A model generated the notes under the pieces. That model saw only the letters and a program-made list of their open reading frames with translations. It was not told where the DNA came from and searched no databases. Source: Iamia majanohamensis (lineage in GTDB: Bacteria > Actinomycetota > Acidimicrobiia > Acidimicrobiales > Iamiaceae). Taken from it: a DNA stretch of 64,000 nucleotides. The stretch's first letter is position 1; every line of letters begins with the position of its first letter. Location of the stretch: positions 1,922,001-1,986,000 of the forward strand of contig NZ_CP116942.1 in assembly GCF_028532485.1 (NCBI RefSeq), given 5' to 3'. Shown here piece after piece: positions 39,644 to 64,000 of the stretch. Made by a program: the position numbers and the translations under genes.

Positions 39644-40678
39644 TCACGAGCCGCTCCCCTCGAGGGTGTCCTGGGCGGCGTGGGCCAGCATCTCGACCTG
39701 CTTGGCGAAGGGCTCCCAGCCCTCGCGGGCGTCGCCCATGGCGCCACCCATGTAGCGGGAGAGCACGCCCTCGAGGATGCAGGCCAGCTTCCAGTACCCG
39801 AAGGCGATGTAGAAGTCGATCTCGCCCACGTCGCGCCCGGAGACCTCGGCGTAGCGCTGGAGCAGGGCGGAGGACGGGGCGAAGCCCTCGACCGCGGTCG
39901 CGGAGTCGGGCAGGGCCTGGAGGTCGCGGCCGTCCTGGCCCCAGTAGACGACGAGCAGGCCGACATCGGCGAGGGGGTCGCCGAGGGTGCAGATCTCCCA
40001 GTCGAGCACGGCCTCGACCGAGCCGTCGTCGGCCAGCAGGCAGTTGTCGAGGCGGTAGTCGCCGTGGACGATGGCGGCCGGGCCCTGCTCGGGCACCTGC
40101 GCAGCCAAGGCGTCGTGGACGGCGTCGACCACGGGAAGGTCGCGGGTCTTGGACTTCTCCCACTGGCCGTACCAGCGCTTGAGCTGGCGGGGGATGTAGC
40201 CCTCCTTGCGGCCCAGGTCGCCGAGTCCGACCTCGTCGGGGTCGACGGCGTGGATGCGGGCCAGGACGTCGACGAGGTCGTGGCCGGCGTGGTCGCGGGC
40301 CTCCTTCGTGAGGGCCTGGGCCGAGGCTGCGTTGCGGAGGATGTGGCCCTCCACGAAGTCCATGACGTAGAAGGGCGCGCCGTTGACCGAGTCGTCGGGG
40401 CTGAGGCCCACGACCGGGGGGACGGGCACGTCGGTGGGGGCGAGGGCGGAGATGATCCGGTGCTCGCGGCCCATGTCGTGGGCGGTGGCGAGGACCTGCT
40501 TGAGCGGCGGTCGGCGCAGCACCCACTCGCCGCCGGCGGTGTCGGTGACCTTGAAGGTCAGGTTCGAGTGGCCGCCGGTGATGAGGGAGAACGACAGGGG
40601 AGGGGACAGGTCGACCCGCTCGGCCATCCAGGCCGTGACGGCCTCGGCGTCGATCCCCGGGACGGTGTCCTCGCTCAT
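39644..40678 (-). CDS. APH-like phosphotransferase family protein
   Basis: 344 residues from ATG 40678, supported by TACCTT 8 nt upstream. It has a kinase-like fold: ITGGHSNLTFKV, WVLRRPP with the ATP-binding lysine position replaced by Arg-rich sequence, the catalytic loop IVHGDYRLDNCLL, and the metal-binding LDWEICTLGDPLADVG. The closest known architecture is the ACAD10/11-type or actinobacterial 'phosphotransferase family' enzyme associated with acyl-CoA metabolism, not antibiotic resistance. The substrate is unknown. It heads the minus-strand run towards the LLM enzyme. Confidence 0.9.
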   Translation of the reverse strand: MSEDTVPGIDAEAVTAWMAERVDLSPPLSFSLITGGHSNLTFKVTDTAGGEWVLRRPPLKQVLATAHDMGREHRIISALAPTDVPVPPVVGLSPDDSVNGAPFYVMDFVEGHILRNAASAQALTKEARDHAGHDLVDVLARIHAVDPDEVGLGDLGRKEGYIPRQLKRWYGQWEKSKTRDLPVVDAVHDALAAQVPEQGPAAIVHGDYRLDNCLLADDGSVEAVLDWEICTLGDPLADVGLLVVYWGQDGRDLQALPDSATAVEGFAPSSALLQRYAEVSGRDVGEIDFYIAFGYWKLACILEGVLSRYMGGAMGDAREGWEPFAKQVEMLAHAAQDTLEGSGS

Positions 40679-40686
40679 CCCCAGGA

Positions 40687-40692
40687 AAGGTA
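40687..40692 (-). promoter_or_regulatory. -10 box of the phosphotransferase gene
   Basis: On the minus strand TACCTT stands 8 nt before ATG 40678; there is no ribosome binding site. Confidence 0.4.
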
Positions 40693-40775
40693 CCGGCTCA
40701 TCCGCCCGCCCCGCGACCCGCCCGTCACCCACTCGTCGTCCGCCGGCCACCGGGCCGTGCCGTGGCCGTCCGGCG

Positions 40776-40789
40776 CACGGCGCGCCGTG
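40776..40789. promoter_or_regulatory. Palindrome in a divergent promoter region
   Basis: CACGGCGCGCCGTG is a perfect 14-bp dyad between the divergent phosphotransferase and Pro-rich membrane protein genes. It may be an operator. Confidence 0.35.
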
Positions 40790-40858
40790 TGCGAGCGTCG
40801 CGGAGCGAAGGGGCCGGGTCCCCCGCCCCGTTCGTCACTGCGTGCCGGACCGCCTGGG

Positions 40859-40864
40859 TAGCCT
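40859..40864 (+). promoter_or_regulatory. -10 box of the Pro-rich membrane protein gene
   Basis: TAGCCT is 8 nt before ATG 40873, with no ribosome binding site. Confidence 0.4.
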
Positions 40865-40872
40865 CGCCCCCG

Positions 40873-41772
40873 ATGTCGTCGGTGCCCCCGCCCCCACCCG
40901 GAGCGCCCGGTCAGTACCCGGGCTCCTACCCTCCCGGTCCGCCGGGGGCCCCCGGGGCCTACCCGCCGGGCGCCTACCCCCCCGGCTCGCCCGGCGGCTA
41001 CCCGCCCGGCGGCGGCTACCAGCCGCCCGGCGCGCCGCCGCCCCCCGGGGCCCCGCCGCCAGGTGGCGGCTACCCCACCGGGGGGTACCCGCCCCAGGGC
41101 GGGGGCGGCTCCCGCACCGGCCTCGTCGTGGGCCTGGTCGTCGGCGGGCTGGTGCTGATCATCGTCGTGCTCGGCGGGGTGCTGCTGCTCACCGGCGGGT
41201 CGTCGTCGATCGACGAGGAGGAGGCGGCCACCTCCCTCGACGACATCCTCGACGAGGCCGACTTCGACACCGACGCCATGCTGCGGGACTGCCCGCTCGG
41301 CGACCCCGACGAGATCATCGCCGGCGTGGGCGAGGCCCTCGACATGGAGGACCTCGACCTGTCCGACGACACGGCCGCCGCCTTCGACGAGTTCGACGGG
41401 GCCGAGGCCGGGGTCGTGTGCACCCTGGTCGACGACGAGGACGACCCGGGCGAGGGCATCTTCGCCTTCTCCACGCCTCGACCCTCCGGCGACTACCCCG
41501 ATGCGGTCGAGGACCTGTTCCCCGACGACGACGTCACCGTCGAGGAGCCCGACGGCTTCCGGGGCGGCGAGGTCTACGCCTACTGCGTGGAGCCCGGCGA
41601 GGACTCCGACAACGAGGGCTGCGGGGCCGACTGGGTCGGCGAGGACATCGTCATCGGCCTCTTCCTCCAGGAGCTCGACGCCGACGTCGAGATGGCCGAC
41701 GACGCCCTCCGGGACCAGGTGGGCGACATGGTCGACGCCCTCGCCGAGGCCGAGCCCGACTTCGAGGAGTAG
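40873..41772 (+). CDS. Pro/Gly-rich single-pass membrane protein
   Basis: 299 residues from ATG 40873. Residues 1-80 are a Pro-Gly-Tyr repeat region (YPPGxPGAYPPGAY type). One membrane helix follows (GLVVGLVVGGLVLIIVVLGGVLLL), then an acidic extracellular domain of ~170 residues with five Cys that could form disulfides. This layout is common among uncharacterised actinobacterial membrane proteins. Function unknown. Composition is strongly acidic after the helix (many Asp/Glu). Confidence 0.83.
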   Translation: MSSVPPPPPGAPGQYPGSYPPGPPGAPGAYPPGAYPPGSPGGYPPGGGYQPPGAPPPPGAPPPGGGYPTGGYPPQGGGGSRTGLVVGLVVGGLVLIIVVLGGVLLLTGGSSSIDEEEAATSLDDILDEADFDTDAMLRDCPLGDPDEIIAGVGEALDMEDLDLSDDTAAAFDEFDGAEAGVVCTLVDDEDDPGEGIFAFSTPRPSGDYPDAVEDLFPDDDVTVEEPDGFRGGEVYAYCVEPGEDSDNEGCGADWVGEDIVIGLFLQELDADVEMADDALRDQVGDMVDALAEAEPDFEE

Positions 41773-41792
41773 CCGCCGCTCTGGTCGGGCCG

Positions 41793-41838
41793 TTCTGATC
41801 GCTGCACGCGCCCTCCGGGGCGCCCTGAGCGATCAGAA
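41793..41838. repeat. Palindromic repeat family C, copy 1
   Basis: 46 nt with perfect 11-bp ends TTCTGATCGCT/AGCGATCAGAA and an inner CCCTCCGGGGCGC. Confidence 0.9.
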
Positions 41839-49881: not shown

Positions 49882-50849
49882 GATCCTTCGCCCTCGTCAG
49901 TCAGGTAGCGGTCCCGGAAGGCCCTGGCCGTCGCCAGCGGGAGCGCGCCGTCGACCGCCAGGAGGGACTCGATCGTCGCCGAGGCGAACGTGTTCTGTTC
50001 ACCGACGAGGAGTTCGCCGTAGCGGCGACAGGCATCGGCGAAGTCGAGGTTCTCGGCCGGGTGCACGAGCACGAACCGACCCCAGGCCCAGCGTTCGCTC
50101 GGGTGCTGGATCATCGACAGGACCAGGAGGTGGTCGAGCCAGATCTGCTGCAGGTCGGTCCCGATGAGGTCCTCAAGGGCATCCGGTCGGAACGCACCTG
50201 AGCGCTCGCTCACCTCCCGGTAGCGGGCGAGGCGGGCGTCGCTCGGGGTCTTCTCGCTGCCCGTGCGCTCGTGGTACTTGGTCTCGATGCCGAGGACCCC
50301 CCGGCTCGACCCCAGATCCAGGAGGAATGCGACGTCGAAGGCGCTGCGGTTGCCGAGGTAGTCGGCGTCGAGGCGGCCGGGAGAGTGCTCGAAGGCCACG
50401 CAATCCACGCCGCCAGGCACGTCGGGCCACCAGGCGTGGATCGCAGCTGTGGCTGCAGCCGGCTCCTGGGCGAGGTCGCCGAAGAGGTTGAAGCACATGG
50501 GCATCGACGACAGGAGGTCGGCCCACAGGCGCTGGGTGGAGAGGGTCTGGTGCGGTTCGGGCTGGGCCAGACGGTCGTCGACCGCAGCCCGAGCTGTGGG
50601 GATGAGGAAGTTGGCACCCGATCGCCCTGCAAGGTCGAGCGGAAGGCGGCTCCCCAACGGTCGTGGGTCCTCGCCCGGCTTCGGGGCGATCGGCTGGGTC
50701 CCCATCGGCAGGCCGTTCCGTTCTCGCCAACGGGCCTGTCGGTGGCGCACGCGACGCCGGAAGGCCGTCATCTCTGGCCGACCGGGCACCCGGTCCACGT
50801 CCTCCCAGCAATGTGCGGCCAGCAGCACCGCCTTCGATAGTCCCTCCAC
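49878..50849 (-). CDS. PD-(D/E)XK nuclease-like protein (PGN_0703-like)
   Basis: 323 residues from GTG 50849, with TATCGT 7 nt upstream, so probably leaderless. LLSSMPMCFNLFGDLA followed by FDVAFLLDLGSSRGVLGIETKYHERTG gives D172, E189 and K191 of a PD-(D/E)XK site and resembles the 'PGN_0703 family putative restriction endonuclease' group (from memory, not searched). The C-terminal part is helical (DLQQIWLDHLLVLSMIQHP; WGRFVLVHPAENLDF). It is coupled to the next nuclease gene by GTGA. It could be a restriction nuclease of unknown specificity. Confidence 0.78.
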   Translation of the reverse strand: MEGLSKAVLLAAHCWEDVDRVPGRPEMTAFRRRVRHRQARWRERNGLPMGTQPIAPKPGEDPRPLGSRLPLDLAGRSGANFLIPTARAAVDDRLAQPEPHQTLSTQRLWADLLSSMPMCFNLFGDLAQEPAAATAAIHAWWPDVPGGVDCVAFEHSPGRLDADYLGNRSAFDVAFLLDLGSSRGVLGIETKYHERTGSEKTPSDARLARYREVSERSGAFRPDALEDLIGTDLQQIWLDHLLVLSMIQHPSERWAWGRFVLVHPAENLDFADACRRYGELLVGEQNTFASATIESLLAVDGALPLATARAFRDRYLTDEGEGS

Positions 50850-50856
50850 GACCGGG

Positions 50857-50862
50857 ACGATA
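50857..50862 (-). promoter_or_regulatory. -10 box of the nuclease pair
   Basis: On the minus strand TATCGT is 7 nt before GTG 50849; no ribosome binding site is present. Confidence 0.45.
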
Positions 50863-51003
50863 GGAGATCGCGCCGAGCTTGAGACCGGTGCTCACCAGGG
50901 CGCAGGTTGGCCGTACTTGCACTATCCCCTCGACCACCACGCCAGCCGCTGCAGCCGTCCTCGCGCCGAGCGGTCACACGCGGCGTGGCCCGATCACGGG
51001 CCG

Positions 51004-51009
51004 TAGGAT
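51004..51009 (+). promoter_or_regulatory. Possible -10 box of the mcrB operon
   Basis: TAGGAT lies about 98 nt before the mcrB start, in the divergent gap. No -35 hexamer is clear. Confidence 0.25.
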
Positions 51010-51107
51010 GCGCGCTCGGTGGGAGGACCTGGACGAGTCCTGTTTGGATCGTGCCGATGCGGTGACCCACGCGACGGACCGAAGGACGAGCCAGGAGCAC
51101 CGACAGA

Positions 51108-54100
51108 GTGGCCATAGCAACCGAGCCCGGGACGGATGCGATCTACTCGCTGGCCCACCGGTGGATCGCCGAGACGATGGAGACGCAGGCCTCGCTGGTC
51201 AGCGACGAGCATGTGTGGACTCCGGGGAATCTCGACGCGCTCTACCGACACTTCATCGAGCAGCCCGACCTGACGAAGAACAAGCCGTACATGGAGAAGC
51301 TGCGGGGCCAGCTCGAGGGGGCTCCGCCTGAGGTCGTCCAGCTGATGGCCGAGGTGCACGTGGTGCACTTCCTCATCATCTGGCCGGGCGCGATGTCGGG
51401 GGCGAAGAAGGTCGCCGACGTCGAGACGATCCTCTCGTGGATGCCGGTGCCACCGGCTCTTCCCGCTGATGTGCGCGAGGCGATGGGCTCAGGTCTCGTC
51501 AACCCAGGGCAGTGGGTCCTCACTCGTCGTGACCTGCACATCGCCTGGTTGATTCGGTTCTCGCAGCACTGGTTGTCCCTGCCGCCCACGGACCGCCAGG
51601 AGGCGATTCGCGATCCATGGGTCCTCAGAGCGATGGCATCTGAGGTCCCATCGGAGAGCGACTCGGCAGCGAGCCACGCCCTCCTGCACCTGGTTCACCC
51701 CGATACCTTCGAGAGGGTCACCTCCGACAACCACCGAGCGAAGATCCTCGCTCGGTTCGGGGATCCTGACTCCGACGACGATCTCGATCGCCAGCTGCTG
51801 GCCGCCCGGTCGGCGCTCGTGGCCACGTGGGGCGAGGACTTCGAATGGTACGACCCAGGCCTCCGCCCGCTCTGGGACAAGGACCTTCGCAAGTGGTCCA
51901 AGTTCCTCCGTTGGGCGGAGAGGCTTCACGCTCTGCCGACCTTCGACGAGGACGAGCGCGACTACAAGCTCGCTGTCGCCGCCGATGTGCAGCGTGCCAG
52001 GTCCGCGTTCGACGCCAGGGGCGACGACTGGTTCGCCCTCCTCACGTCCGCACTGAGCAGCAGCAACCTGCTGCTGTGGCGATCCCGTAGCGAGTTCCTC
52101 ACCTGGGGGGAGGGCGACCGAGAAGGGCTGATCCAGGCCCTGACGGCGATCTGGGGTGGCGAGTCCGACCCGGCCGACCGGCTGGCGACGTTCGTTGACG
52201 CACTGCCGGATGACGTCCTGACGACGCCGGGAGAGCAGCTCAACATCGGTTCCGTCCTGCTGATGGCCGATGGCGCCGAGCAGAACCCACCGGCGAAGGT
52301 CTCGGCCTTTCGACAGGCGTGGGCGCTGTCGGGCTGGAGCGGCCCCGGTCGCCAGGACGGGTCCGAGTCGGAGACCGTCTACGCCGCTGCCCTCACCTTC
52401 TGCGACGAGCTGGTTCGGAGCTCGGCGGACTGGCCCTATCCCCTGCGCGACCGACTCGATGCCCAGTCGGTGGTCTGGTACCTCGTGAAGGTGAGCAAGC
52501 GCCCGGAGGGGTGGTCCGAGGAGGACTGGGCGAGCTTCGAGAAGTTCGTGAGCGGTGTGGCGAGCGAGGATGAGGAGGGAGACGAGCCACCTGTGGACCC
52601 GGTCGGGCCGGGGCCCCACCTCCCGCCCGTCTCCTTCACTCCAGAGACCGATCGACGGCGGCAGCGGTACGCCCCGATCCAGGCCGCGTGGGCGGCCGAC
52701 GACGCCGCCCAGCGGGTGCACGGCGAGGAGGCCGCCCTCAGCGACGAGGTCAGGCCCATGGTCGCTGATCTCCTCGAAGGGCTGGCCGAGGACCCTGATG
52801 TGCAGCGCCTCATCACGGCCATGGGACAAGGTCCGTTCCCCAGGTTCATGCGCCGGGGCAGCCATCGCACGTTCCTCGCCCACGCCCGCAACCGGGCCGG
52901 TGAGTCCGGGGCTCAGCTCTCTGCGGTGGTGAGGGAGGCCTACACCGCGCCGACCGATCTCAAGGATGCTCGACGCCGCATCGCGCTGATCCACGGCGAG
53001 GTCCACTCCATCGATGGCGTCGGCGCCTCCCAGCGCGGCATGGTCCCGCTCGCAGTGTCGGCGTACTGGGCTCTTCAGGACCCGTCGAAGTGGCCTGCGC
53101 TGTGGGCGAGCACCGAGCAGCCGCTGCACCGGGTCGGGTGGCTCGAGCAGCAGGACGACCCCGCAGACCGCTACGAGGCCTACTACCGGTTGCTCACATC
53201 GCTCGACGACGACCTGCGGGCCCTTGTGCCTTGCATCTCGTGGTGGGGTGACGGGGGAGTGGTGGGGGTCGATCCACTCGCGGCGGAGCGGTGCCAGCAG
53301 AACGTCGCTCTCGCTCGGCAGTTCTATGACAACGACCGCCAGTACCCGGATCAGTCCGCTCAGACGACGGCGACCACCAACGCTCGGGCACTCGTGGGCG
53401 ACTTCGCCCTCGTCGCCCGGTCGCTTGCCGAGGTGGTCGCCGACGGCATCGGCCGCAAGGTGGCAGACGCTCCGCCACGACCGCGCTACGGATCCGACCG
53501 GCCGTTCCGCCACGACGGCTTTGCCGCCTGGCGGCTGGTCGAGGAGGAGACGCAGCCCTCTGTTCGCCTGTGGGCCGTGGGCGACCGGACGGTGGTCGGT
53601 CTTCACCCCGGCTACGGAGACGGTGACTGGATGGCGGAGTCCGCCAGCCGCATCCGAGGCCGTCTGCCTGAGGGGTTCGGCTTCTTCGACATCGTCACGG
53701 GACGCGGCCGCTACGACCTGGTTCCGCGCAACGGCCCCGATCCCCACGGCGAGTACCTGGTGGGTCGTGAGGTGCCGCCGGACGAGGTGATCGGATCCGC
53801 GGTCGCTGACACGATGCGTACGGCGACGGAGGCCCTTGCGCCGTTGGTCGACCTCCTCAAGCCTCCCTCTGAGACTCAAGACCGCGAGGACGTCGAGCAC
53901 CAAGACACCGACATCGATCACATCGAAGCTGCGGCCACCGAGCTCCTCATCGATCGCGAGGATCTCGACAAGATCGTCGACCTCATGGCCGACGAGTCAG
54001 GGCTACGTCAGGTCGTCTTCTACGGGCCGCCAGGCACGGGCAAGACCTTCGTCGCCCAGCGTCTCGCCCGCGCTCTCGCCGGGGAGAACGCCGATCGCTG

Positions 54101-54854
54101 GGGGGTCGTGCAGTTCCACCCGGCCACGTCCTACGAGGACTTCATCGAAGGTCTGCGGCCCAAGGTGGTCGAAGGCCAGGTCACCTACGAGCTGGTGGCG
54201 GGACCTCTCGTCCGCATGGCGGAGCGGGCGGCCGAGGACCCGGCGCACGACCACGTGCTCGTCATCGACGAGATCAACCGGGCCAACCTCCCCAAGGTCC
54301 TCGGCGAGATGCTCTTCCTGCTCGAGTATCGGTCCACCCCCGTGCAACCGCTCTACCGGGGCGGTGAGGTGTTCACCCTCCCGCCGAACCTGAAGATCAT
54401 CGGCACCATGAACACGGCGGACCGCTCCATCGCGCTGATCGACGCTGCCATGCGACGGCGTTTCCACTTCGTCGGGTTCTTCCCTCACCAGGAGCCGACC
54501 CGCTCGCTGTTGCGCCGGTGGCTCGAGGCCAACGGCCGTCCCGTCGAAGTGGCGGACTTTGTCGAGGCCGTCAACGAGGAGCTGGCGCCCTTGCTCGGCG
54601 AGCACCTCCTGCTCGGCCCCAGCTTCTTCATGAAGGAGGACCTGAGCGAGGGCGGCCTGCGACGGATCTGGGACCACAACGTCTTCCCCTTCCTTGAGGA
54701 CCAGCTGTGGGGTCGGGAGGCCGAGCTCGCCGAGTGGCGGTGGGAGGCCGTGAGGAGCCGTGTCAGGGCGACCATCGGGGCCGAGGGTGCGGCCGCCGAC
54801 CTCGACGGAGCGCCTGACGGGGCGGCGACAGAGGCGGCCGGTCAGAAGCCGTGA
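51108..54854 (+). CDS. mcrB: McrB-like AAA+ ATPase with long N-terminal region
   Basis: 1248 residues from GTG 51108 (AGGAG 12 nt upstream). The AAA+ module is at ~970-1215: Walker A GPPGTGKT (973-980, K979), Walker B VLVIDEINRAN (D1054, E1055) and the McrB-specific MNTADRS (1101-1107) that marks GTP-using motors, then DAAMRRRFHFV. The N-terminal ~960 residues are far longer than in E. coli McrB and include LLHLVHPDTFERVTSDNHRAKIL, a motif recurring in McrB-like family N-termini. DNA recognition probably lies there. The stop overlaps the mcrC start (GTGA). Confidence 0.9.
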   Translation: MAIATEPGTDAIYSLAHRWIAETMETQASLVSDEHVWTPGNLDALYRHFIEQPDLTKNKPYMEKLRGQLEGAPPEVVQLMAEVHVVHFLIIWPGAMSGAKKVADVETILSWMPVPPALPADVREAMGSGLVNPGQWVLTRRDLHIAWLIRFSQHWLSLPPTDRQEAIRDPWVLRAMASEVPSESDSAASHALLHLVHPDTFERVTSDNHRAKILARFGDPDSDDDLDRQLLAARSALVATWGEDFEWYDPGLRPLWDKDLRKWSKFLRWAERLHALPTFDEDERDYKLAVAADVQRARSAFDARGDDWFALLTSALSSSNLLLWRSRSEFLTWGEGDREGLIQALTAIWGGESDPADRLATFVDALPDDVLTTPGEQLNIGSVLLMADGAEQNPPAKVSAFRQAWALSGWSGPGRQDGSESETVYAAALTFCDELVRSSADWPYPLRDRLDAQSVVWYLVKVSKRPEGWSEEDWASFEKFVSGVASEDEEGDEPPVDPVGPGPHLPPVSFTPETDRRRQRYAPIQAAWAADDAAQRVHGEEAALSDEVRPMVADLLEGLAEDPDVQRLITAMGQGPFPRFMRRGSHRTFLAHARNRAGESGAQLSAVVREAYTAPTDLKDARRRIALIHGEVHSIDGVGASQRGMVPLAVSAYWALQDPSKWPALWASTEQPLHRVGWLEQQDDPADRYEAYYRLLTSLDDDLRALVPCISWWGDGGVVGVDPLAAERCQQNVALARQFYDNDRQYPDQSAQTTATTNARALVGDFALVARSLAEVVADGIGRKVADAPPRPRYGSDRPFRHDGFAAWRLVEEETQPSVRLWAVGDRTVVGLHPGYGDGDWMAESASRIRGRLPEGFGFFDIVTGRGRYDLVPRNGPDPHGEYLVGREVPPDEVIGSAVADTMRTATEALAPLVDLLKPPSETQDREDVEHQDTDIDHIEAAATELLIDREDLDKIVDLMADESGLRQVVFYGPPGTGKTFVAQRLARALAGENADRWGVVQFHPATSYEDFIEGLRPKVVEGQVTYELVAGPLVRMAERAAEDPAHDHVLVIDEINRANLPKVLGEMLFLLEYRSTPVQPLYRGGEVFTLPPNLKIIGTMNTADRSIALIDAAMRRRFHFVGFFPHQEPTRSLLRRWLEANGRPVEVADFVEAVNEELAPLLGEHLLLGPSFFMKEDLSEGGLRRIWDHNVFPFLEDQLWGREAELAEWRWEAVRSRVRATIGAEGAAADLDGAPDGAATEAAGQKP

Positions 54855-56140
54855 GTCCCGTCGTAGACCTGGTCAAGGTCGCTCCCGGTGCCCGAAAGGC
54901 AGACGGGCGCAACGTCGATGACGACCCACCAACGGTCGTCGTCGACGAGTACAAGGCGGTCGAGGTCCCCCTCGAGCGAGACACGGCCGAGCGCATCCGT
55001 CGCATCGTTGGTCGTCGTCTGACGGTCCGCCCTACGGACTGCCCGGGCCACTGGCGCATCGAGGCCGGCTCGCACGTCGGCACCGTCGTGGCGCCTGGGT
55101 TGAGGCTTCTCGTCCGCCCAAAGGTGCGGGCCGCCAACCTCTTCCACCTCCTTGGCGTGGAAGGCGCAGGCGTCCGCTTCGAAAGAGCTGCCTTCGACTA
55201 TGCGCGTAGCCCCGACCTGCTCCCCGCCGTCGGAGGCTTCTACCAGCGGGCCCTGGAGGCGACGCTCGCCCGTGGGCTGACTCGCCGCTACCTCGAGCAG
55301 GAGGAGCGACTGAGCGCCGTCCGTGGGCGGATCGACGTCGCCGCGCAGATGCGGCGACCGGGACTGCCGATCCCGATCGCGTGTCGATTCGATGAGCACA
55401 GCGCCGACACGCCTCTCAACCGCATCGTCCGCGAGGCGGCGCTCCGCCTGATGCGGCTACCGGGCGTCCCCTCCGACACCCGACGAGGGTTGGCGTCGAT
55501 GGTTGTCCAACTCGACGAGGTGGGTGCCTTCCGGGAGAGCGACCGCGCTCGACCGATCACCCTGACCCGCCTCGACGAGCACTACCGGCACTCGCTGCGA
55601 CTGGCGGAGGTGGTGCTCGACGCGACATCGATCCGCAACGACCCGGCCGACAGCAGCGGCGCTGCTGCCTCGGCGTTCCTGGTGAACATGAACACCCTCT
55701 ACGAGCGGTTCGTCGAGCAGGGGCTGCGACGCGCCCTACGGGGGCACCTCGATGTCGACGGCCAGCGAACCATCAACCTCGATGTCGATCAGAAGGTCCG
55801 CATCAGACCGGATCTGGTCTTCCGGCGTGGGACGAGGGACGTGTTCGTCGGCGACGCCAAGTACAAGCTGGCCGACTCCGGGGTGGGCCGAGACGCCGAC
55901 TACTACCAGCTCCTCGCCTACACGACGGCGCTCGATGTTGCCGAGGGCGTCCTCGTCTACTGCCATGCCGGCGACGCGCCGCTGGCGGGCGAGGTCGTTG
56001 TCCGCTACGCCGGCAAGCGCCTCTGGACGAGGTGCATCAGCCTTGCTGGAGCCCCCGAGGAGGTCGACGCCGAGCTCGATGATGTTGGCGCCTGGATCTT
56101 GGAAAAAGCAACTGGACGTTCGCGGATGGCCGGGGTGTGA
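54851..56140 (+). CDS. mcrC: McrC-like nuclease subunit
   Basis: 429 residues from GTG 54851, coupled to mcrB by GTGA. The N-terminal half has LVRPKVRAANLFHLLG and LEATLARGLTRRYLEQEERLSAVRGRI, as in McrC. The nuclease core is RIRPDLVF (D321) then FVGDAKYKL (D335, K337), a PD-(D/E)XK site with Asp in place of Glu, as in McrC itself. McrC binds the McrB hexamer, stimulates its GTPase and cleaves DNA, classically at methylated sites. All key residues are intact. Base composition is lower in GC than in the left part of the window. Confidence 0.93.
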   Translation: MSPVVDLVKVAPGARKADGRNVDDDPPTVVVDEYKAVEVPLERDTAERIRRIVGRRLTVRPTDCPGHWRIEAGSHVGTVVAPGLRLLVRPKVRAANLFHLLGVEGAGVRFERAAFDYARSPDLLPAVGGFYQRALEATLARGLTRRYLEQEERLSAVRGRIDVAAQMRRPGLPIPIACRFDEHSADTPLNRIVREAALRLMRLPGVPSDTRRGLASMVVQLDEVGAFRESDRARPITLTRLDEHYRHSLRLAEVVLDATSIRNDPADSSGAAASAFLVNMNTLYERFVEQGLRRALRGHLDVDGQRTINLDVDQKVRIRPDLVFRRGTRDVFVGDAKYKLADSGVGRDADYYQLLAYTTALDVAEGVLVYCHAGDAPLAGEVVVRYAGKRLWTRCISLAGAPEEVDAELDDVGAWILEKATGRSRMAGV

Positions 56141-56333
56141 GGGTCCTGGCGCGTTGCGGGCGCCGCACGAACTTGGCGATGTATGACGCCGTCGAGTCCG
56201 AGGTGCAGCTGCTGTGTTGGGACCGCCGCGCAGCTCGAGACCACAGACGGTACGGCGACCCCGGCCTACGGCCTACGCTCGCGCTGGCGACAGGGACGGG
56301 GTTGGCGATCGTGGATCAGGGCTGGCTTGCGAA

Positions 56334-59237
56334 GTGACGGGGCTGACCGACCACCAGGCAGCACTGTTCGCCCGGGAACTGCAACGGCGTTGCCCCAGTG
56401 GCGAAACCGGTCGCATCGGCACCGCCCTCCTTGATGCACAGGTCGACCTGAACCCCCACCAGGTCGATGCGGCCCTGTTCGCCTTCCAGTCCCCACTCTC
56501 GAAGGGCGTCATCCTGGCCGATGAGGTCGGCCTCGGGAAGACGATCGAAGCCGGGCTGGTCCTCACCCAGCGCTGGGCGGAGGGCCGCCGCCGGGTCCTC
56601 GTCGTCGCTCCGGCCAGCCTGCGCAAGCAGTGGGCCCAGGAGCTGGCTGACAAGTTCTACCTGCCGTCGACGATCCTCGAGGCCAAGTCGTTCTCAGCCG
56701 CGGTCAAGGCCGGTGCTCGCAACGCCTTCGTTCGGCCGACCGACAACCCGGCTGTCGTCATCTGCTCGTACCAGTTCGCAGCCCGGCATTCCGACGATCT
56801 GGCCGCCGCTCGCTGGGACCTGGCCATCCTCGACGAGGCCCACCGGCTCCGGAACGTGTGGAAGTCGGGCGCCAAGATCGCCACCGCCATCCGCGCCGCC
56901 CTGGCGACGACGCCAAAGCTGCTGCTCACGGCGACGCCTCTCCAGAACTCGCTGATGGAGCTCTACGGCCTGGTCAGCATCATCGACGAGAACCACTTCG
57001 GCGACGCCAAGAGCTTCAAGGCCCAGTACGCCCGGCTGGTCGACCTGGGGCGTTTCGACGAGCTGAAGGCCCGGCTGGAACCGGTCTGCCACCGCACCCT
57101 GAGGCGTCAGGTCGTCGAGTATGTGAGCTACACCAACCGGGTTCCGCTCACCCAGGAGTTCCAGCCCTCGGACGGTGAGCAGGCCCTGTACGACATGGTG
57201 TCGGACTACCTGCGGCGCCCCGAGCTATACGCCCTGCCGTCCGGCCAACGCTCGCTGATGGTCCTGGTGATGCGCAAGCTGCTGGCGTCGTCCACCTTCG
57301 CCATCGCCGGTGCCCTCGGGACCCTTGCCGGGAAGCTCCGGTCCGCCCTCCGAGCTGACGACGACGCCCGGTCCCGCCTGGCCGCCACCGTCGACGAGGA
57401 GCTGGCCGACGACTACGAGGACCTGCCCGCCCAGGCCGAGGAGTGGTCCGATCCGCCACCCGATGAAGACCAAGAAGAGCTGGATCGTCCCCTCACCGAG
57501 GAGGAGAGGGCGGCGTTGGTCGCCGAGATTGACGAGCTGACCGGATTCCGTGATCTGGCCACATCGATCACCGAGAACGCCAGGGGCCTCGCCCTGCTCT
57601 CAGCCCTTCAGACCGGCTTCACCAAGGCAAGGGTGCTGGGCGCAGCCGACAAGGCCGTGATCTTCACCGAGTCCCGGCGCACCCAGGACTACCTGGTCGG
57701 TCTCCTATCCCGGTCGGGCTACGAGGGACGCATCGTCCTCTTCAACGGCTCCAACAGCGACCCCGAGTCGAGGGCGATCTACCGGGAATGGAAGGAGCGC
57801 CACCAGGGGACGAGCCGCATCACGGGCTCACCCACCGCCGACATGCGGGCCGCCCTGGTCGAGCGCTTCCGCGACCATGGGACTGTCATGATCGCCACAG
57901 AGGCGGCGGCCGAGGGGATCAACCTCCAGTTCTGCTCCATGGTCGTCAACTACGACCTGCCGTGGAACCCGCAGCGCATCGAGCAGCGCATCGGCCGGTG
58001 CCACCGCTACGGCCAGAAGCACGACGTGGTGGTCGTCAACTTCCTCAACCGCCGCAACGCGGCCGACGTCCGCGTGTTCGAGCTCCTCCATGAGAAGTTG
58101 CGCCTGTTCTCCGGCGTGTTCGGCGCCAGCGACGACGTGCTCGGCGCCATCGAGTCCGGTGTCGACATCGAACGCCGGATCGTCGACATCTATCAGGACT
58201 GTCGGACCAGTGACGAGATCGACGCCCAGTTCACCCAGCTCCAGCTTGACCTCGATCAGCAGATCAGCGCGACCATGGAGGACACACGGTCCAAGCTGCT
58301 GGAGCACTTCGATGCCGAGGTCCACGACCGGCTGAGGGTGAGCCTGAGCGAGAGCACCGAGGTCATCGACCGGTCCTCCGACGTGCTGTGGCGCATCACT
58401 GAGCACGTGCTGGCCGGACACGCGACCATCGACCCGGCGACGCGGTCGTTCGCCCTGGCCGAGGCGCCACCGTTTGCGCCCGCCACCGCCCCTGGCCGGT
58501 ACCGGCTCACCCGGGAGGACGGCGCTGGTGCCATGCGCTATCGGTCCCAGCACCCCCTTGCCCTCGCCGTGGTCGACCGGGCGGCAGTCCTTCCTTGCCC
58601 CTCCGCCGAGCTCTGCTTCGACTACTCGGGCTGGCCGGTCCGCTCGCAGGCCCTTGCTCCCCTAGTCGGCACGTCGGGCATCGTCATCGCCGACCACCTT
58701 CGGCTGGCGGGCGAGGAACCGGAGGACCACCTGGTGATCTTGGCCGTCACCGACGACGGCACGACCTTGGACCCCGAGGCGGGCCGCCGGCTTCTCGACG
58801 TACCCGCCAGGGTCGAGCGCGAGGCCGCGATCGACATTCCGGACACCGTGATCGAGTTGGCCGCGCATCGTCTCGATGCCCTGCTCGATGCCATCAGCGG
58901 CCGCCAGGGCGCCTGGTTCGAGGAAGAGATGGACAAGCTCGACCGCTGGGCTGACGACAAGCGGACCGGACTCAAGGCCGACCTCAAGGCCCACGACGAT
59001 GTCCTCAAGGAGTTCAAGCGCGAGGCCCGCCAGGCGCCGAGCCTGCCCGACAAGCTGGCCATCCAGCGCAAGATCCGCAAGGTCGAGGTCACCCGCAACG
59101 AGGCGTGGCGGGCCTACGACGACGAGGCCCGCACCGTCGAGGAGGCCAAGGAGGCGCTCATCGACGACGTCGAGCGCCGCCTTGCGGTGGACCCGACGGT
59201 CGAGCGCCTCTGGACCATCCGCTTCACCATTAGCTGA
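56334..59237 (+). CDS. SNF2-family helicase
   Basis: 967 residues from GTG 56334, chosen as the last start before the conserved TDHQAALFARELQRR; no ribosome binding site is evident. Motif I DEVGLGKT (K69), motif Ia VLVVAPASLRKQW, motif II DEAH (167-170), motif III LLTATPLQN, and C-terminal motifs AVIFTESRRTQDYL, EAAAEGINLQF and QRIGRCHRYGQ (551-561) identify an SNF2/RapA-like translocase. The end is a coiled coil rich in Asp/Lys (~850-950). It sits between mcrC (193-nt gap) and mod (18-nt gap), so it goes with the type III genes more than with McrBC. Its role there is unknown; DNA translocation is inferred. Confidence 0.92.
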   Translation: MTGLTDHQAALFARELQRRCPSGETGRIGTALLDAQVDLNPHQVDAALFAFQSPLSKGVILADEVGLGKTIEAGLVLTQRWAEGRRRVLVVAPASLRKQWAQELADKFYLPSTILEAKSFSAAVKAGARNAFVRPTDNPAVVICSYQFAARHSDDLAAARWDLAILDEAHRLRNVWKSGAKIATAIRAALATTPKLLLTATPLQNSLMELYGLVSIIDENHFGDAKSFKAQYARLVDLGRFDELKARLEPVCHRTLRRQVVEYVSYTNRVPLTQEFQPSDGEQALYDMVSDYLRRPELYALPSGQRSLMVLVMRKLLASSTFAIAGALGTLAGKLRSALRADDDARSRLAATVDEELADDYEDLPAQAEEWSDPPPDEDQEELDRPLTEEERAALVAEIDELTGFRDLATSITENARGLALLSALQTGFTKARVLGAADKAVIFTESRRTQDYLVGLLSRSGYEGRIVLFNGSNSDPESRAIYREWKERHQGTSRITGSPTADMRAALVERFRDHGTVMIATEAAAEGINLQFCSMVVNYDLPWNPQRIEQRIGRCHRYGQKHDVVVVNFLNRRNAADVRVFELLHEKLRLFSGVFGASDDVLGAIESGVDIERRIVDIYQDCRTSDEIDAQFTQLQLDLDQQISATMEDTRSKLLEHFDAEVHDRLRVSLSESTEVIDRSSDVLWRITEHVLAGHATIDPATRSFALAEAPPFAPATAPGRYRLTREDGAGAMRYRSQHPLALAVVDRAAVLPCPSAELCFDYSGWPVRSQALAPLVGTSGIVIADHLRLAGEEPEDHLVILAVTDDGTTLDPEAGRRLLDVPARVEREAAIDIPDTVIELAAHRLDALLDAISGRQGAWFEEEMDKLDRWADDKRTGLKADLKAHDDVLKEFKREARQAPSLPDKLAIQRKIRKVEVTRNEAWRAYDDEARTVEEAKEALIDDVERRLAVDPTVERLWTIRFTIS

Positions 59238-59255
59238 TCGCCGAAGGAGAGAGTC

Positions 59256-61121
59256 ATGACCGACACCGAGGACCCGACCATCGACCGACTGGACCTGGCT
59301 ACGGATCGCCCGGCCGACGAGCGGCTGGCTGCGCTTCGGGGGCTGTTCCCCGAGGCGGTGACCGAGTCGGGCGTCGACGTCGACGCCCTGCGCCGCTCGC
59401 TGGGCGAGGAGGTCGACCCCGGGCTCGAGCGGTTCGGCCTGACCTGGCCAGGCAAGGCCGAGTGCATGAGGGTCATCCAGACGCCATCGCTCGGGACCCT
59501 GGTGCCGATGCCAGAGGCGTCGGTCGACGGTGACACGACCGGAAACGTGATCATCGAGGGCGAGAACCTCGAAGTGCTGAAGTTGCTCCAGCGCGCCTAC
59601 CACGGGCGGGTCAAGCTGATCTACATCGACCCGCCGTACAACACAGGCAAGGAGTTCATCTACCCCGACAACTTCAAGGAGGGCTTGGCTGACTACCTCC
59701 GTTACTCTGGTCAGGTCGACGACGAGGGCCTCAAGCTCCAGGCGAACACCGAGACCGACGGGCGCTACCACTCCAAGTGGCTCTCGATGATGTACCCCAG
59801 ACTCTTCCTAGCGCGAAATCTCCTGCATGAGTTTGGCTTCATCGCTGTTTCGATTGGAAATCAGGAGTTGAGCAACGCCCAACTGCTAATGAACGAGGTC
59901 TTCGGAGAGGAGAACTTCGTAGCGCTTCTTGTTCGCCGGGCAATGCACACGGTCCGAAACTCGAGCAAAGACTTTAATCACCATGCGGACTATGTATTGG
60001 TCTATGCACGCTCAAAGGCCTACTATGAGTCAGATCCCTCGCGCTACCTTCGTGAGGTCGTCGACAAGGGCGATAGTTATCCGAGAGATGACGGTGATGG
60101 GCGTGGTCCGTACAAACTGGATCCCCTTGTAGCCAGGAACTACAATCGACCCTATACATTTGAGTTCTCTAATGGCGTAACCTGGTCTGCGCCCCAGGGG
60201 TCATTTCCTCGCTATAGCCAAGATTCCTTGGCCCGGATGGAGGCTGACGGCAGGATCGTATTCGGTGGAAAGAACCCAATGGCCAAGCGCTATCTCCGGG
60301 AAGTTCAGGAAGGCCGGCCACCCGATACAATTCTCAACCCACAGCGGGTTGGATTCAACAGCGATGGAACGCGTCAGTTGCATGAATGCCTCAGTGAGGA
60401 TAAGGCGTTTCCACAGCCCAAACCAGTTGAGCTCATTCAGTATCTGATTGAGTTGATGGGAGATCCAGGCGCTCTCGTCGTTGACTTCTTCGCCGGTTCG
60501 GGGTCGACCGGTCATGCCGTGATGGCGGCGAACGCCGAGGACGGTGGAAGCCGTCGGTTCATCCTCGTGCAGCTGCCAGAGTCGGTCGAGAGCGATCGCT
60601 TCGACACCATTGCTGATATCACCCGGGCCCGGGTCAAGGCGGCGGGGGAGCGGCTGGAGGCGGACGAGCAATCGCTCCTCCCAGGGCCGCTCGACGTGGG
60701 TTTTCGTGCGCTGCGTCTCGAGCGGTCGAACTTCAAGGTTTGGGACTCGTCGACCTCGGATGCGGACGGTGTGTCCGAGCGGCTGGACATGGCGATCGAC
60801 CACATCGCTCCAGACGCCACCGACAAAGCGCTCCTGACGGAGATCACGCTGAAGTCTGGGTTCCCCCTCGCCACACGGGTCGAGGACGTCGACCTGGCCG
60901 GGCTAACCGGGTACTCAGTGGCCGATGGTGCCCTGCTCGTCTGCCTAGCCCGCCAGCTCACCATCGAGGCTGTGGAGGCCATGGTCGAGCGGGGACCGGA
61001 CCGCATCGTTCTGCTCGACGCCGGCTTCGGCGGCAGCGACGAGCTCAAGGTCAACGCCCTACAGACCGTCCGGGCCAGGCCAGGTGCTGGCGGGGAAACC
61101 ATCGCCCTCCAGGTGGTGTGA
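59256..61121 (+). CDS. mod: Type III DNA N6-adenine methyltransferase (Mod)
   Basis: 621 residues from ATG 59256, with GGAGAG upstream. Motif order is that of beta-class enzymes: DPPYNTG at 125-131 first, then the target recognition region, then FAGSGST (D410; 412-418). The N-terminal ~70 residues are an extra helical region, and the C-terminal ~150 residues follow the type III pattern. Mod methylates adenine and supplies sequence specificity to Res. Bases ~59,800-60,480, between the two catalytic motifs, drop to about 53% GC by hand count, against ~63-75% outside, and use A/T-ending codons unlike the rest. Confidence 0.94.
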   Translation: MTDTEDPTIDRLDLATDRPADERLAALRGLFPEAVTESGVDVDALRRSLGEEVDPGLERFGLTWPGKAECMRVIQTPSLGTLVPMPEASVDGDTTGNVIIEGENLEVLKLLQRAYHGRVKLIYIDPPYNTGKEFIYPDNFKEGLADYLRYSGQVDDEGLKLQANTETDGRYHSKWLSMMYPRLFLARNLLHEFGFIAVSIGNQELSNAQLLMNEVFGEENFVALLVRRAMHTVRNSSKDFNHHADYVLVYARSKAYYESDPSRYLREVVDKGDSYPRDDGDGRGPYKLDPLVARNYNRPYTFEFSNGVTWSAPQGSFPRYSQDSLARMEADGRIVFGGKNPMAKRYLREVQEGRPPDTILNPQRVGFNSDGTRQLHECLSEDKAFPQPKPVELIQYLIELMGDPGALVVDFFAGSGSTGHAVMAANAEDGGSRRFILVQLPESVESDRFDTIADITRARVKAAGERLEADEQSLLPGPLDVGFRALRLERSNFKVWDSSTSDADGVSERLDMAIDHIAPDATDKALLTEITLKSGFPLATRVEDVDLAGLTGYSVADGALLVCLARQLTIEAVEAMVERGPDRIVLLDAGFGGSDELKVNALQTVRARPGAGGETIALQVV

Positions 61122-61122
61122 C

Positions 61123-64000
61123 ATGACCATCCGTCTCAAGTTCGACGCCGGCCTCGGCTACCAGCGCGGCGCCATCGCCAGCGTGGTCGACCTGTTCAGA
61201 GGGTTGCCTTTGGCCGACGCGCCCTTCGCCCTGCCGTCGACCGCCGGATCCCAGCTGCACTTGGCTGAGCTTGGGGTCTCGAACCCCGTTCCCGACGACC
61301 AGGAGGCCTTCGAAGCATCAGTGCTCAGCAACCTGCGCGCGGTCCAGGCCAGCAATGGGTTGGATGAGAGTGCCGCCCTCGACGGCATGCACTTCTCGGT
61401 GGAGATGGAGACCGGCACGGGCAAGACCTACGTCTACCTCCGCACGATCATGGAGCTGCACCGCACCCACGGGTTCACCAAGTTCGTGATCGTGGTGCCC
61501 AGCATCGCCATCCGGGAAGGCGTCATGGCCAGCATCGGAGGACTTCGTGACCACCTGACCGACCTGTACCTGGAGCCCTTCGACGTCGCCCTCTACGACT
61601 CGAAGCACCTGGGACGGGTCCGCCAGTTCGCGACGTCGACATCGATCCAGATCCTGGTCATGAACATCCAGGCCTTCCAGCGCGATGTGGAGGAGGAGGG
61701 TAGCGAAGCCAAGGCCAACGTCATCAATCGGGCCCAGGACCGGCTGTCAGGACGGCGGCCGGTCGAGTTCGTCCAGGCGACGCACCCGGTGGTGATCATC
61801 GACGAACCTCAGAAGATGGAGTCCGAGAAGTCGGCCGCCGCCATCGACCGGCTCCAGCCGCTCTGCACCCTCCGCTACTCGGCCACCCACAAGAAGCCCT
61901 ACAACCGGGCGTATCGGTTGGGGCCCATCGAGGCCTACGACCTGAACCTGGTCAAGCGCATCGAGGTGGCCAGCGTCGTCGCCGACGACAACCCCAACGC
62001 CGCGTTCGCCCGCTTGCTCGGCGTCGACGCGGCCAATCAGCGGGCTCGTCTTGCCCTCAACGTGGGCATCGGTGGCAAGGTCACCCAGAGGAAGAAGTGG
62101 GTCAAGGTGGGCGCCGACCTCAGCCACCTGTCCGGCGGCCGCCAGGAGTATGCCGAGGGGTGGCGGGTTGCCGACATCTCCTTCCGCCCGGGCGCCGAGG
62201 CCGTCGACTTCGCGAACGGACAGGAGGTGACGCTGGATGTCGCTGTCGGCGCCTTCGACACCGACGTCCGCCGGGCCCAGGTGGTCGAGACGGTGCGCCA
62301 GCACCTCGACAAGGAGAAGGCACTGGCCGCTCAGGGTGTCAAGGTGCTGTCGCTGTTCTTCGTCGACAAGGTGGCCGACTACCGGGCCATCGACGAGAAC
62401 GGGTCCCGCACCCTTGGCCCCGTGGGGGAGTGGTTCGAAGAGGCCTACGCCGAGCACGCCGCTCGGCCCCGGTACGCCTCGCTTGGGCTGCCGCCGGTCG
62501 AGAACGTCCACGACGGGTACTTCAGCGTCGACAAGAAGGGCGCTACCAAGGACACTCGCGGAGAGAGCGCTCTCGATGTCGACACCTACGACCTCATCAT
62601 GCGGGACAAGGAGCGGCTGCTGTCACCGGACGAGCCGTTGCGGTTCATCTTCAGTCACTCGGCCCTCCGGGAAGGCTGGGACAACCCCAACGTCTTCCAG
62701 ATCTGCACCTTGAGTGGTGCCAGGTCGACCGACCGCAAGCGGCAGGAGATCGGCCGGGGCCTGCGCCTGCCCGTCGGGCCCGACGGTGGGCGCATCCACG
62801 ATCCCAGGACCAACCGGCTCACCGTGGTGGCCAACGAAGCCTACGAGGAGTTCGCCCGCACCCTGCAGACCGAGTACGAGGAGGACACCGGCATCCGGTT
62901 CGGTGTCGTCGAGCGAAGCGCCTTCCGGAGGCTGGCCCTGCCATCCGGCGATCCCCTTGTCCCGCACGCGGAGATCGGCTCCGAGACGTCCGCGGAACTG
63001 TGGGAACACCTCCGTACCGCCGGCTACCTCGCCGACGACGGGACGGTCACCCCCGCCTTCCGGCCGCAGGATGACGACTTCCGCCTCGACGTGCCAGACC
63101 ACCTCGCAGCCATCCGGTCCGACATCACCGATGCCATCTCCCGCCACGTCTTCACCAACCGGGTCAAGGACGCTCGCGCGCGCAAGCGGATCGGGTTCCG
63201 CAAGCAGGTCACCCTCGACCCGGACTTCAAGGAGCTCTGGGACAAGATCAGCCAACGCACCCGGTACCGAGTGTCCCTGTCGAGCGCAGACCTGGTCGAG
63301 GCAGCCGCCCAGGACATCGCCGACGCCATCGAGAGGACACCGATCGGCCCGCCCAAGGTGCGGGTGAAGACCGTCGAGGTGGGCCATAGCCACGCCGGGC
63401 TCTCGACCGACACGATCATCGATCAGCGCTCCTACGAGACCGCTGCACCCTTGGTGCTGCCAGACCTGCTGGCCGACCTCCAGAACGCCACCGACCTCAC
63501 CCGTCCGACCCTGGTGGCCATCCTGCGCCGGTCGGGTCGTTTGGGCGACTTCCCCGTGAACCCCCAGGACTTCACCACATTGGTGACGTCACGGATCAAC
63601 GCCGCACTGCACAGCCAGATGGTGGACGGCCTCACGTATGAGCCCGTGGCCGGGCACCGCTGGGACATGCTGCGCCTCGAGCAGGAGGCGGGCGAGGAGC
63701 TGGAGCGCTACGCCTCGAACCTGTACGAGGTCCAGAACCAGGCCAAGACCCCGTTCGACCACGTGGAGCTCGACTCTGACGGTGAGCGGCGCTTCGCCAA
63801 GGCGCTCGACGACAACAGCCGGGTGAAGCTCTTCGTCAAGCTACCGCGGTGGTTCACCGTCGACACGCCGATCGGTGCATACAACCCGGACTGGGCGATT
63901 GTCCTCGACGACTCTGGCGGTCACGCCACCGTCCACCTCGTGCGTGAGACCAAGAGCACGGCCGACCCCTCGAAGCGGCGCCCTGACGAGAACACCAAGG
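61123..64000 (+). CDS. res: Type III restriction enzyme Res subunit (3' end cut by window)
   Basis: 959 residues are visible from ATG 61123, one base after the mod stop; no stop occurs before the window ends. Motif I EMETGTGKTYVYLRTI (K101), motif II IIDEPQKME (D227) and motif VI RQEIGRGLRLPV mark the DEAD/H helicase of Res. A C-terminal endonuclease core is reached just before the edge: NPDWAIV (D923) and VRETK (E942, K944), the PD-(D/E)XK site of type III enzymes. Res translocates or diffuses after ATP hydrolysis and cleaves near unmethylated sites with Mod. It appears intact so far. Confidence 0.94.
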   Translation, partial: MTIRLKFDAGLGYQRGAIASVVDLFRGLPLADAPFALPSTAGSQLHLAELGVSNPVPDDQEAFEASVLSNLRAVQASNGLDESAALDGMHFSVEMETGTGKTYVYLRTIMELHRTHGFTKFVIVVPSIAIREGVMASIGGLRDHLTDLYLEPFDVALYDSKHLGRVRQFATSTSIQILVMNIQAFQRDVEEEGSEAKANVINRAQDRLSGRRPVEFVQATHPVVIIDEPQKMESEKSAAAIDRLQPLCTLRYSATHKKPYNRAYRLGPIEAYDLNLVKRIEVASVVADDNPNAAFARLLGVDAANQRARLALNVGIGGKVTQRKKWVKVGADLSHLSGGRQEYAEGWRVADISFRPGAEAVDFANGQEVTLDVAVGAFDTDVRRAQVVETVRQHLDKEKALAAQGVKVLSLFFVDKVADYRAIDENGSRTLGPVGEWFEEAYAEHAARPRYASLGLPPVENVHDGYFSVDKKGATKDTRGESALDVDTYDLIMRDKERLLSPDEPLRFIFSHSALREGWDNPNVFQICTLSGARSTDRKRQEIGRGLRLPVGPDGGRIHDPRTNRLTVVANEAYEEFARTLQTEYEEDTGIRFGVVERSAFRRLALPSGDPLVPHAEIGSETSAELWEHLRTAGYLADDGTVTPAFRPQDDDFRLDVPDHLAAIRSDITDAISRHVFTNRVKDARARKRIGFRKQVTLDPDFKELWDKISQRTRYRVSLSSADLVEAAAQDIADAIERTPIGPPKVRVKTVEVGHSHAGLSTDTIIDQRSYETAAPLVLPDLLADLQNATDLTRPTLVAILRRSGRLGDFPVNPQDFTTLVTSRINAALHSQMVDGLTYEPVAGHRWDMLRLEQEAGEELERYASNLYEVQNQAKTPFDHVELDSDGERRFAKALDDNSRVKLFVKLPRWFTVDTPIGAYNPDWAIVLDDSGGHATVHLVRETKSTADPSKRRPDENTK

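Follow-up and report, generated by a model that had tools for sequence, protein, structure and literature searches.

The window analysed here is a stretch of 64,000 nt of Iamia majanohamensis. Towards its end lies mod (59256..61121, + strand), which encodes a 621-residue protein that, judged on its sequence, is a type III Mod, a beta-class N6-adenine DNA methyltransferase. The protein matches PF01555 (3.4e-30, 106.1 bits for a cut-off of 26.7) and the PADLOC model MTase_III (6.2e-168, residues 17-605). The 5' conserved part of the gene (59256..59798, GC3 about 0.91) encodes the N-terminal region and motif IV, DPPYNTG (residues 125-131, 59628..59648), while motif I, FAGSGST (residues 412-418, 60489..60509), precedes the 3' conserved part (60516..61121, GC3 about 0.82), all on the + strand. 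On the same strand, res (61084..63999) encodes the type III restriction subunit (PADLOC REase_III, 4e-267); it extends beyond the window end and its C-terminal part carries on in L110:91-1101. This adjacent Res has the helicase and nuclease domains (PF04851 and PF19778) expected of a type III pair.

The order of the motifs, with DPPY before and FxGxG after the recognition domain, is that of EcoP15I. The structure predicted with AlphaFold (mean pLDDT of 80.3), from an alignment of 44 sequences (the Iamia Mod and 43 of its 97 homologues), has EcoP15I Mod (4zcf) as its closest fold, with a TM score of 0.66-0.71 and 23-25% identity in the fold alignment. In EcoP15I Mod, the methyltransferase domain comprises residues 62-262 and 390-516, and the target recognition domain (TRD) residues 263-384 (PMC4490356). 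Transferring these limits by hand through a phmmer alignment, the counterpart of the TRD would be residues 266-350 or so of the Iamia protein (60051..60305, + strand), give or take a few residues.

Directly 5' of mod, the same cassette carries a DrmD-like helicase of the SNF2 type (56214..59237, + strand). Of the 97 related loci, 60 have at least 2.5 kb of sequence upstream of mod; a homologue of this helicase precedes mod in 12 of the 97. A DISARM system was considered and rejected: the helicase scores 674.5 bits against DrmD_b, under the cut-off of 950, the DrmA model matches only this same helicase in the eight frames scanned, and neither DrmB nor DrmC is among the matches listed for these frames. 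A phase-variable mod (phasevarion) was also rejected; unlike in phase-variable systems, there is no tandem repeat with a score of at least 30 at 58800-61500.

The first-pass annotation of this DNA had counted by hand 349 G+C in the 660 bases from 59821 to 60480 (52.9%), and the count is exact. Sliding windows of 200 bases, the check which it had proposed, give 50-56% from about 59700 to 60499, 60% at 59500-59799 and 60400-60599, and 62-75% farther out within 56000-64000. When two change points are fitted to the GC3 of the mod frame, the best segment goes from codon 182 to codon 420 (59799-60515), and a right end at codon 409 (60482) fits almost equally well; we use the block of codons 182-409 (59799..60482, + strand, GC3 0.57). 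The step is carried by third codon positions (0.57-0.58 within the block, 0.86 outside). The gain in log-likelihood is 32.1, compared to a maximum of 12.5 among 200 permutations, which were run on a coarser grid. The support intervals are narrow on the left (codons 178-187, 59787-59814) and wide on the right (codons 404-456, 60467-60623). The low-GC segment had been said to start after DPPYNTG and to end just before FAGSGST: its left end actually lies about 50 codons past the first motif, and its right end is indeed near the second one, but at or inside it rather than before it.

The restriction island (about 50000-63999) has 63-69% G+C, compared to 71-80% for positions 1-50000 of the window; the entire island being lower, the flanks of mod are also under the host level. 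No central dip is seen in two further PF01555 genes of the Iamia genome; in one of them the first 120 codons of the open frame are lower. Among 175 other open reading frames, 5 pass the threshold for an internal segment and one of these segments is low; it lies in a 471-codon frame (40383-41795) which is probably not a gene, since its third-position GC is below its first-position GC.

The low central GC3 is not peculiar to this gene. From 106 loci, of which three have no Mod match, and after exclusion of the window itself (L003 and L004), a duplicate (L061) and three loci with too short an open reading frame (L020, L053 and L062), 97 homologues were compared with the Iamia Mod, making a set of 98. 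With stratification by amino acid, the segment corresponding to residues 182-410 is below its own flanks in 91 of the 98 (mean difference 0.172, Wilcoxon 4e-17), and the mean dip is positive in each class of flank GC3. The mean profile of the family is box-shaped: its best two change points delimit codons 220-404 (59913..60467 in the Iamia gene, + strand), where GC3 is about 0.21 under that of the flanks. These codons appear to span the recognition domain and motif X. Since the structural counterpart of the TRD covers only about residues 266-350, the low-GC block is wider than the TRD proper, taking in late methyltransferase motifs and motif X.

The shift goes in one direction. By Fisher tests at the 0.01 level, the centre is significantly lower in 76 of the 98 Mods and higher in none, and this holds at every host GC. 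The centre is also lower in 22 of 25 plasmid Mods (significantly in 11, and significantly higher in none), so that both groups together give 87 of 123 significantly lower and none higher. The TRD lies above both flanks in four of the 98 Mods, never significantly, and in two thinned sets, of 24 and 34 sequences, it lies under both flanks in 18 and 28, respectively. In GC-rich loci, the neighbouring frames include non-genes, which contaminate the comparison, and the partner Res was used instead: its GC3 exceeds that of the TRD in 65 of 67 loci, whereas flanks and Res do not differ significantly. Internal GC3 segments as strong as that of the Iamia gene are found in 67 of the 98 Mods (60 of them low), compared to 2 of the 67 Res (one low). 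A similar tendency is seen in the specificity subunit of type I systems: in 20 of 22 hsdS loci of the window's phylum, the GC3 of the recognition domain is under that of the adjacent frame on the same strand (8 of the 30 loci had no qualifying neighbour). The adjacent frames of the two exceptions, L126 and L138, have a first-position GC of 0.91 and look like wrong frames.

The centre and the flanks of these proteins do not share their history. Over the 4753 pairs of the 98 Mods, the identities of the N- and C-flanks are correlated (rho 0.71), whereas the identity of either flank is hardly correlated with that of the TRD core (residues 221-395; rho 0.08 in both cases) and weakly correlated with that of the wider segment 182-410 (rho 0.24 and 0.20). 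Trees were built from 33 hand-picked sequences (the Iamia Mod and 32 of the 97 homologues), among them pairs previously found to be chimeric. In AU tests, each alignment rejects the tree of the other part: delta lnL is 2218 (p 9e-39) for the TRD tree on the flank alignment and 982 (p 1.6e-6) for the flank tree on the TRD alignment; the two flanks also reject one another's tree, but by far less (105-179). In the flank tree, the Iamia Mod forms a group with L016 and L009 (support 100); in the TRD tree, it is apart from them, on a long branch (1.55), and its placement is unsupported. A uniform phylogeny of the whole gene, which according to the first-pass annotation would argue against an exchange, is therefore not what is found.

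L016 is the nearest relative of the cassette: it shares 65% identity with the Iamia cassette in the helicase and 63% in Res. The identity of the two Mods is 0.73 in the N-flank, 0.21 in the TRD core and 0.39 in the C-flank; along the sequence, it is 0.75-0.95 over residues 101-200, 0.45 over residues 201-220 and 0.05-0.37 over residues 221-380. Aligning related Mods, another check which had been proposed, reveals that the similarity to the nearest relatives breaks close to the borders of the low-GC block. The GC3 of the L016 Mod (L016:3772-5781) stays low from residue 176 onwards, through the whole remainder of the protein, and its C-terminal part looks to have been exchanged too, so that part of the difference between the two proteins is a change in L016. 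Full replacement is less clear relative to L006, where the identity is patchy in the centre and reaches 0.61 at residues 301-320. These nearest flank relatives are just 65-73% identical to the Iamia Mod in the N-flank, and they differ in composition: L006 shares the dip, L009 is nearly flat and L016 is low from residue 176.

Exchange is also seen elsewhere in the family. In 81 pairs, which are not independent, the TRDs are at least 0.60 identical although both flanks are below 0.55. The reverse case, like flanks around unlike TRDs, occurs in many pairs; in L021 and L023, for example, the identity is 0.98 in the N-flank and 0.81 in the C-flank, compared to 0.17 in the TRD. At the DNA level, two E. 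coli plasmid alleles are 95.6% identical over codons 1-120 and 46% over codons 220-404, and two E. faecium plasmid alleles 97.1% and 43%, respectively; in both pairs, the identity already drops at residues 121-180. Identity can also fall through rapid divergence in place, but this cannot yield common TRDs within unlike flanks. The central segment has a separate history, sharp borders and an offset in composition which is one-sided across the family.

We consider it fairly probable that the block in the Iamia gene is the exchangeable specificity module of a type III Mod, one of a set of modules which evolve separately and are shifted towards AT. The module would comprise the end of the N-terminal catalytic region, the TRD and motif X, and would have been replaced as a unit relative to the nearest relatives of the cassette. 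On the left, the break would fall around KWLSMMYPRL and on the right around DFFAGSGST, two conserved coding blocks which seem to be similar enough to recombine, unlike the middle; homologous recombination would thus be the mechanism of exchange. By analogy with EcoP15I, a swap would change the sequence that is methylated and restricted, while leaving catalysis and the partnership with Res in place. The low G+C would then be the usual state of the module in this family, namely the composition of the host plus a roughly constant offset towards AT.

The original proposal, a TRD swap from a donor of lower GC, therefore stands in part. The identity breaks, the conflict between trees and the swaps elsewhere in the family support an exchange of the centre; a low-GC source is unsupported, the centre being low in most homologues and significantly higher in none, and no donor having been found. 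That the recognition domain arrived recently from a lower-GC species, too recently for adaptation to the host, appears unlikely, even though several observations on the Iamia gene suit it: the GC3 of its TRD is 0.54, compared to 0.83 for the flanks and 0.89 for Res, its borders are sharp, and its codons 181-219 are low as well (0.63), a feature that is less marked in the family mean. Similarly, the centres of the swapped E. coli alleles have a GC3 of 0.23-0.25, compared to 0.34-0.36 for their flanks; they are already AT-rich, which suggests that the module brings the shift along. (In E. faecium, one of the two swapped alleles lacks the dip, with 0.34 in both parts, and the other has a small one, 0.22 versus 0.29, p 0.05.) But random donors should at times be richer in GC than the recipient, which is not seen in any of the 98 Mods or the 25 plasmid Mods at a significant level.

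The relation to the host also speaks against import. A mixture of the host and one fixed pool of donors fits the data as well by AIC as a constant logit offset (-0.98), but it takes one parameter more and needs the pool to have a GC3 of -0.48, which is impossible; a logit line (slope 0.82, offset -0.85) is slightly better than either. The AIC values are -406.6, -406.5 and -409.9, reported in what seems to be the order pool, offset, line. In 101 pairs with like TRDs, the GC3 of the TRD differs between hosts as much as that of the flanks (slope 1.07). Since a constant offset fits and like TRDs differ between hosts as the flanks do, the GC of the module follows the host at a distance. The residuals of the dip are weakly correlated with TRD type and flank type (0.08 and 0.03), which does not show inheritance with either.

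The searches did not yield a donor of the Iamia module either. The best full-length match among those listed for plasmids is 36% identical (one further record was counted at 60-80% identity), the best in phages is 36%, two loci in viral contigs reach 31%, and the best other match in 396 genomes of the same phylum, its own included, is 36%; the three other genomes of the genus give a single weak match (34% over residues 307-472). No close relative of either the flanks or the TRD was found in the genomes, plasmids, phages and viral contigs searched, the best central identity being about 39%. As no donor is at hand (the best central matches are 36-39% identical), the swap in the Iamia gene itself rests on incongruence with relatives of 65-73% N-flank identity.

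It is still less probable that the segment became AT-rich in place, by relaxed or positive selection and with no need for exchange. The GC3 of the TRD tracks that of the host (r 0.80) at a roughly constant offset, and completely so for like TRDs in different hosts, as would be expected in that case. But at the borders the mean offset appears and disappears over one to three bins of 12 codons, and column conservation has no influence on the dip: TRD columns are lower by about 0.2 at every level of conservation, compared to 0.05 to 0 for flank columns that are equally poorly conserved. The conflict between centre and flank trees, and the unrelated centres between nearly identical flanks in the plasmid alleles, are also difficult to reconcile with change in place.

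That the dip is a by-product of amino-acid content, codon selection or read misassembly is very improbable: the slight rise of flank-column GC3 with conservation (rho 0.14), the almost unshifted A/G-ending codons of low-GC hosts (lower in 12 of 22) and a deeper dip in metagenome-assembled genomes (MAGs) would fit it, but the dip persists within amino-acid strata, the shares of FYMINK and GARP residues shift by at most 0.045, the dip is mostly synonymous, with both A and T increased at four-fold sites, the complete plasmids show it too, and the Iamia genome is a single contig. The dip averages 0.224 in 63 MAGs, compared to 0.104 in 13 genome loci without MAG in their title and 0.117 in the 25 plasmids (p 1e-5); these 13 loci were sorted by eye from their titles, and L043 among them may be a MAG. 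Part of the excess in MAGs may come from assembly or sampling. The 38 sources without MAG in the title are still one-sided, with 32 lower (19 significantly) and none significantly higher. Amino-acid bias, codon use linked to conservation and a fixed AT-rich donor pool were each tested and judged insufficient to account for the dip.

A set of separately evolving, AT-shifted modules, the reading we prefer, would account both for host tracking and for a shift that travels with the module. Because the offset follows the host, low GC would mark membership of this set, and not one low-GC donor species. Going further, and much more tentatively, the recognition domains of restriction-modification systems might make up a separate genetic compartment whose GC equilibrium is, in every host, below that of the surrounding gene. 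TRDs could be too diverged to pair with other alleles and could so escape a process that raises GC and is linked to homologous recombination, such as GC-biased conversion or more efficient selection, which would act on the flanks and on Res. Bacterial mutation reportedly favours AT (PMC2936535), and whether gene conversion in bacteria is biased towards GC is a matter of dispute (PMC8153448). For modA12, signs of recombination were found in the 3' flank, not in the DNA recognition domain (DRD) or the 5' region (PMC3311624); by analogy, this pattern would suit in part an escape from such a process, of which it is not a test.

The exchange itself has published precedents. In the modA genes of Neisseria and Haemophilus, the DNA recognition domain is exchanged (Gawthorne 2012, PMC3311624); like the Iamia gene, modA is a type III mod in which a central module is exchanged en bloc between conserved 5' and 3' parts. 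The GC of modA12 is 40% in the 5' part, 28% in the DRD and 40% in the 3' part, which its authors regard as further evidence of horizontal transfer. That study covers many strains of few species, with GC tabled for one allele group; the Iamia gene differs in that it has no strain pair, has GC-rich flanks and shows a low GC which is the norm of its family. EcoP15I resembles it in the order of motifs and domains, in the adjoining Mod and Res and as the best fold match (4zcf, PMC4490356), but the identity in the fold alignment is low (23-25%) and the Iamia cassette has an SNF2-type helicase upstream. The recognition domains of type I HsdS also move as modules (Domain Movement, PMC3077401) and have a lower GC3 (the 20 of 22 loci above), but they belong to a separate specificity subunit. 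Such exchange and one low-GC case are already published (PMC3311624), and the Iamia gene adds an unremarkable further example of a type III Mod whose specificity module has probably been exchanged.

A base composition differing from that of the host has been used as evidence for the acquisition of restriction-modification genes (PMC12707154, and PMC5198162 for S. suis). There, whole systems are compared with the host genome; here, one domain is compared with its own gene. A low GC of the recognition domain has likewise been taken as a sign of transfer from outside (PMC3311624). If most TRDs are shifted towards AT at any host GC, and none in reverse, this use of GC is weak; since the dip is one-sided and family-wide, the low G+C of a single recognition domain is weak evidence of its source. 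In the literature searched, which left subscription journals mostly outside, no earlier description of a one-sided, family-wide TRD offset was found, and a search on AT-rich accessory genes found nothing. The family-wide shift matters more than the Iamia gene itself and is the part worth pursuing: if true, the comparison of TRD and flanks would provide a test, within one gene and on the same transcript, of why exchanged genes are AT-rich.

The island at 50000-63999 carries, ahead of the SNF2 helicase and the type III pair, a McrB-like AAA protein (51108-54854) and a McrC-like protein (54851-56140); L028 is the only one of the related loci which also has McrB-like and McrC-like homologues at E 1e-30. 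In the plasmid loci L163 and L164, an SNF2-related gene lies ahead of mod, and many other plasmid loci have a DUF4391 gene. On the 3' side of res, L110:1410-2936 encodes a 508-residue protein which matches the candidate defence family PDC-M26A (2.5e-34).
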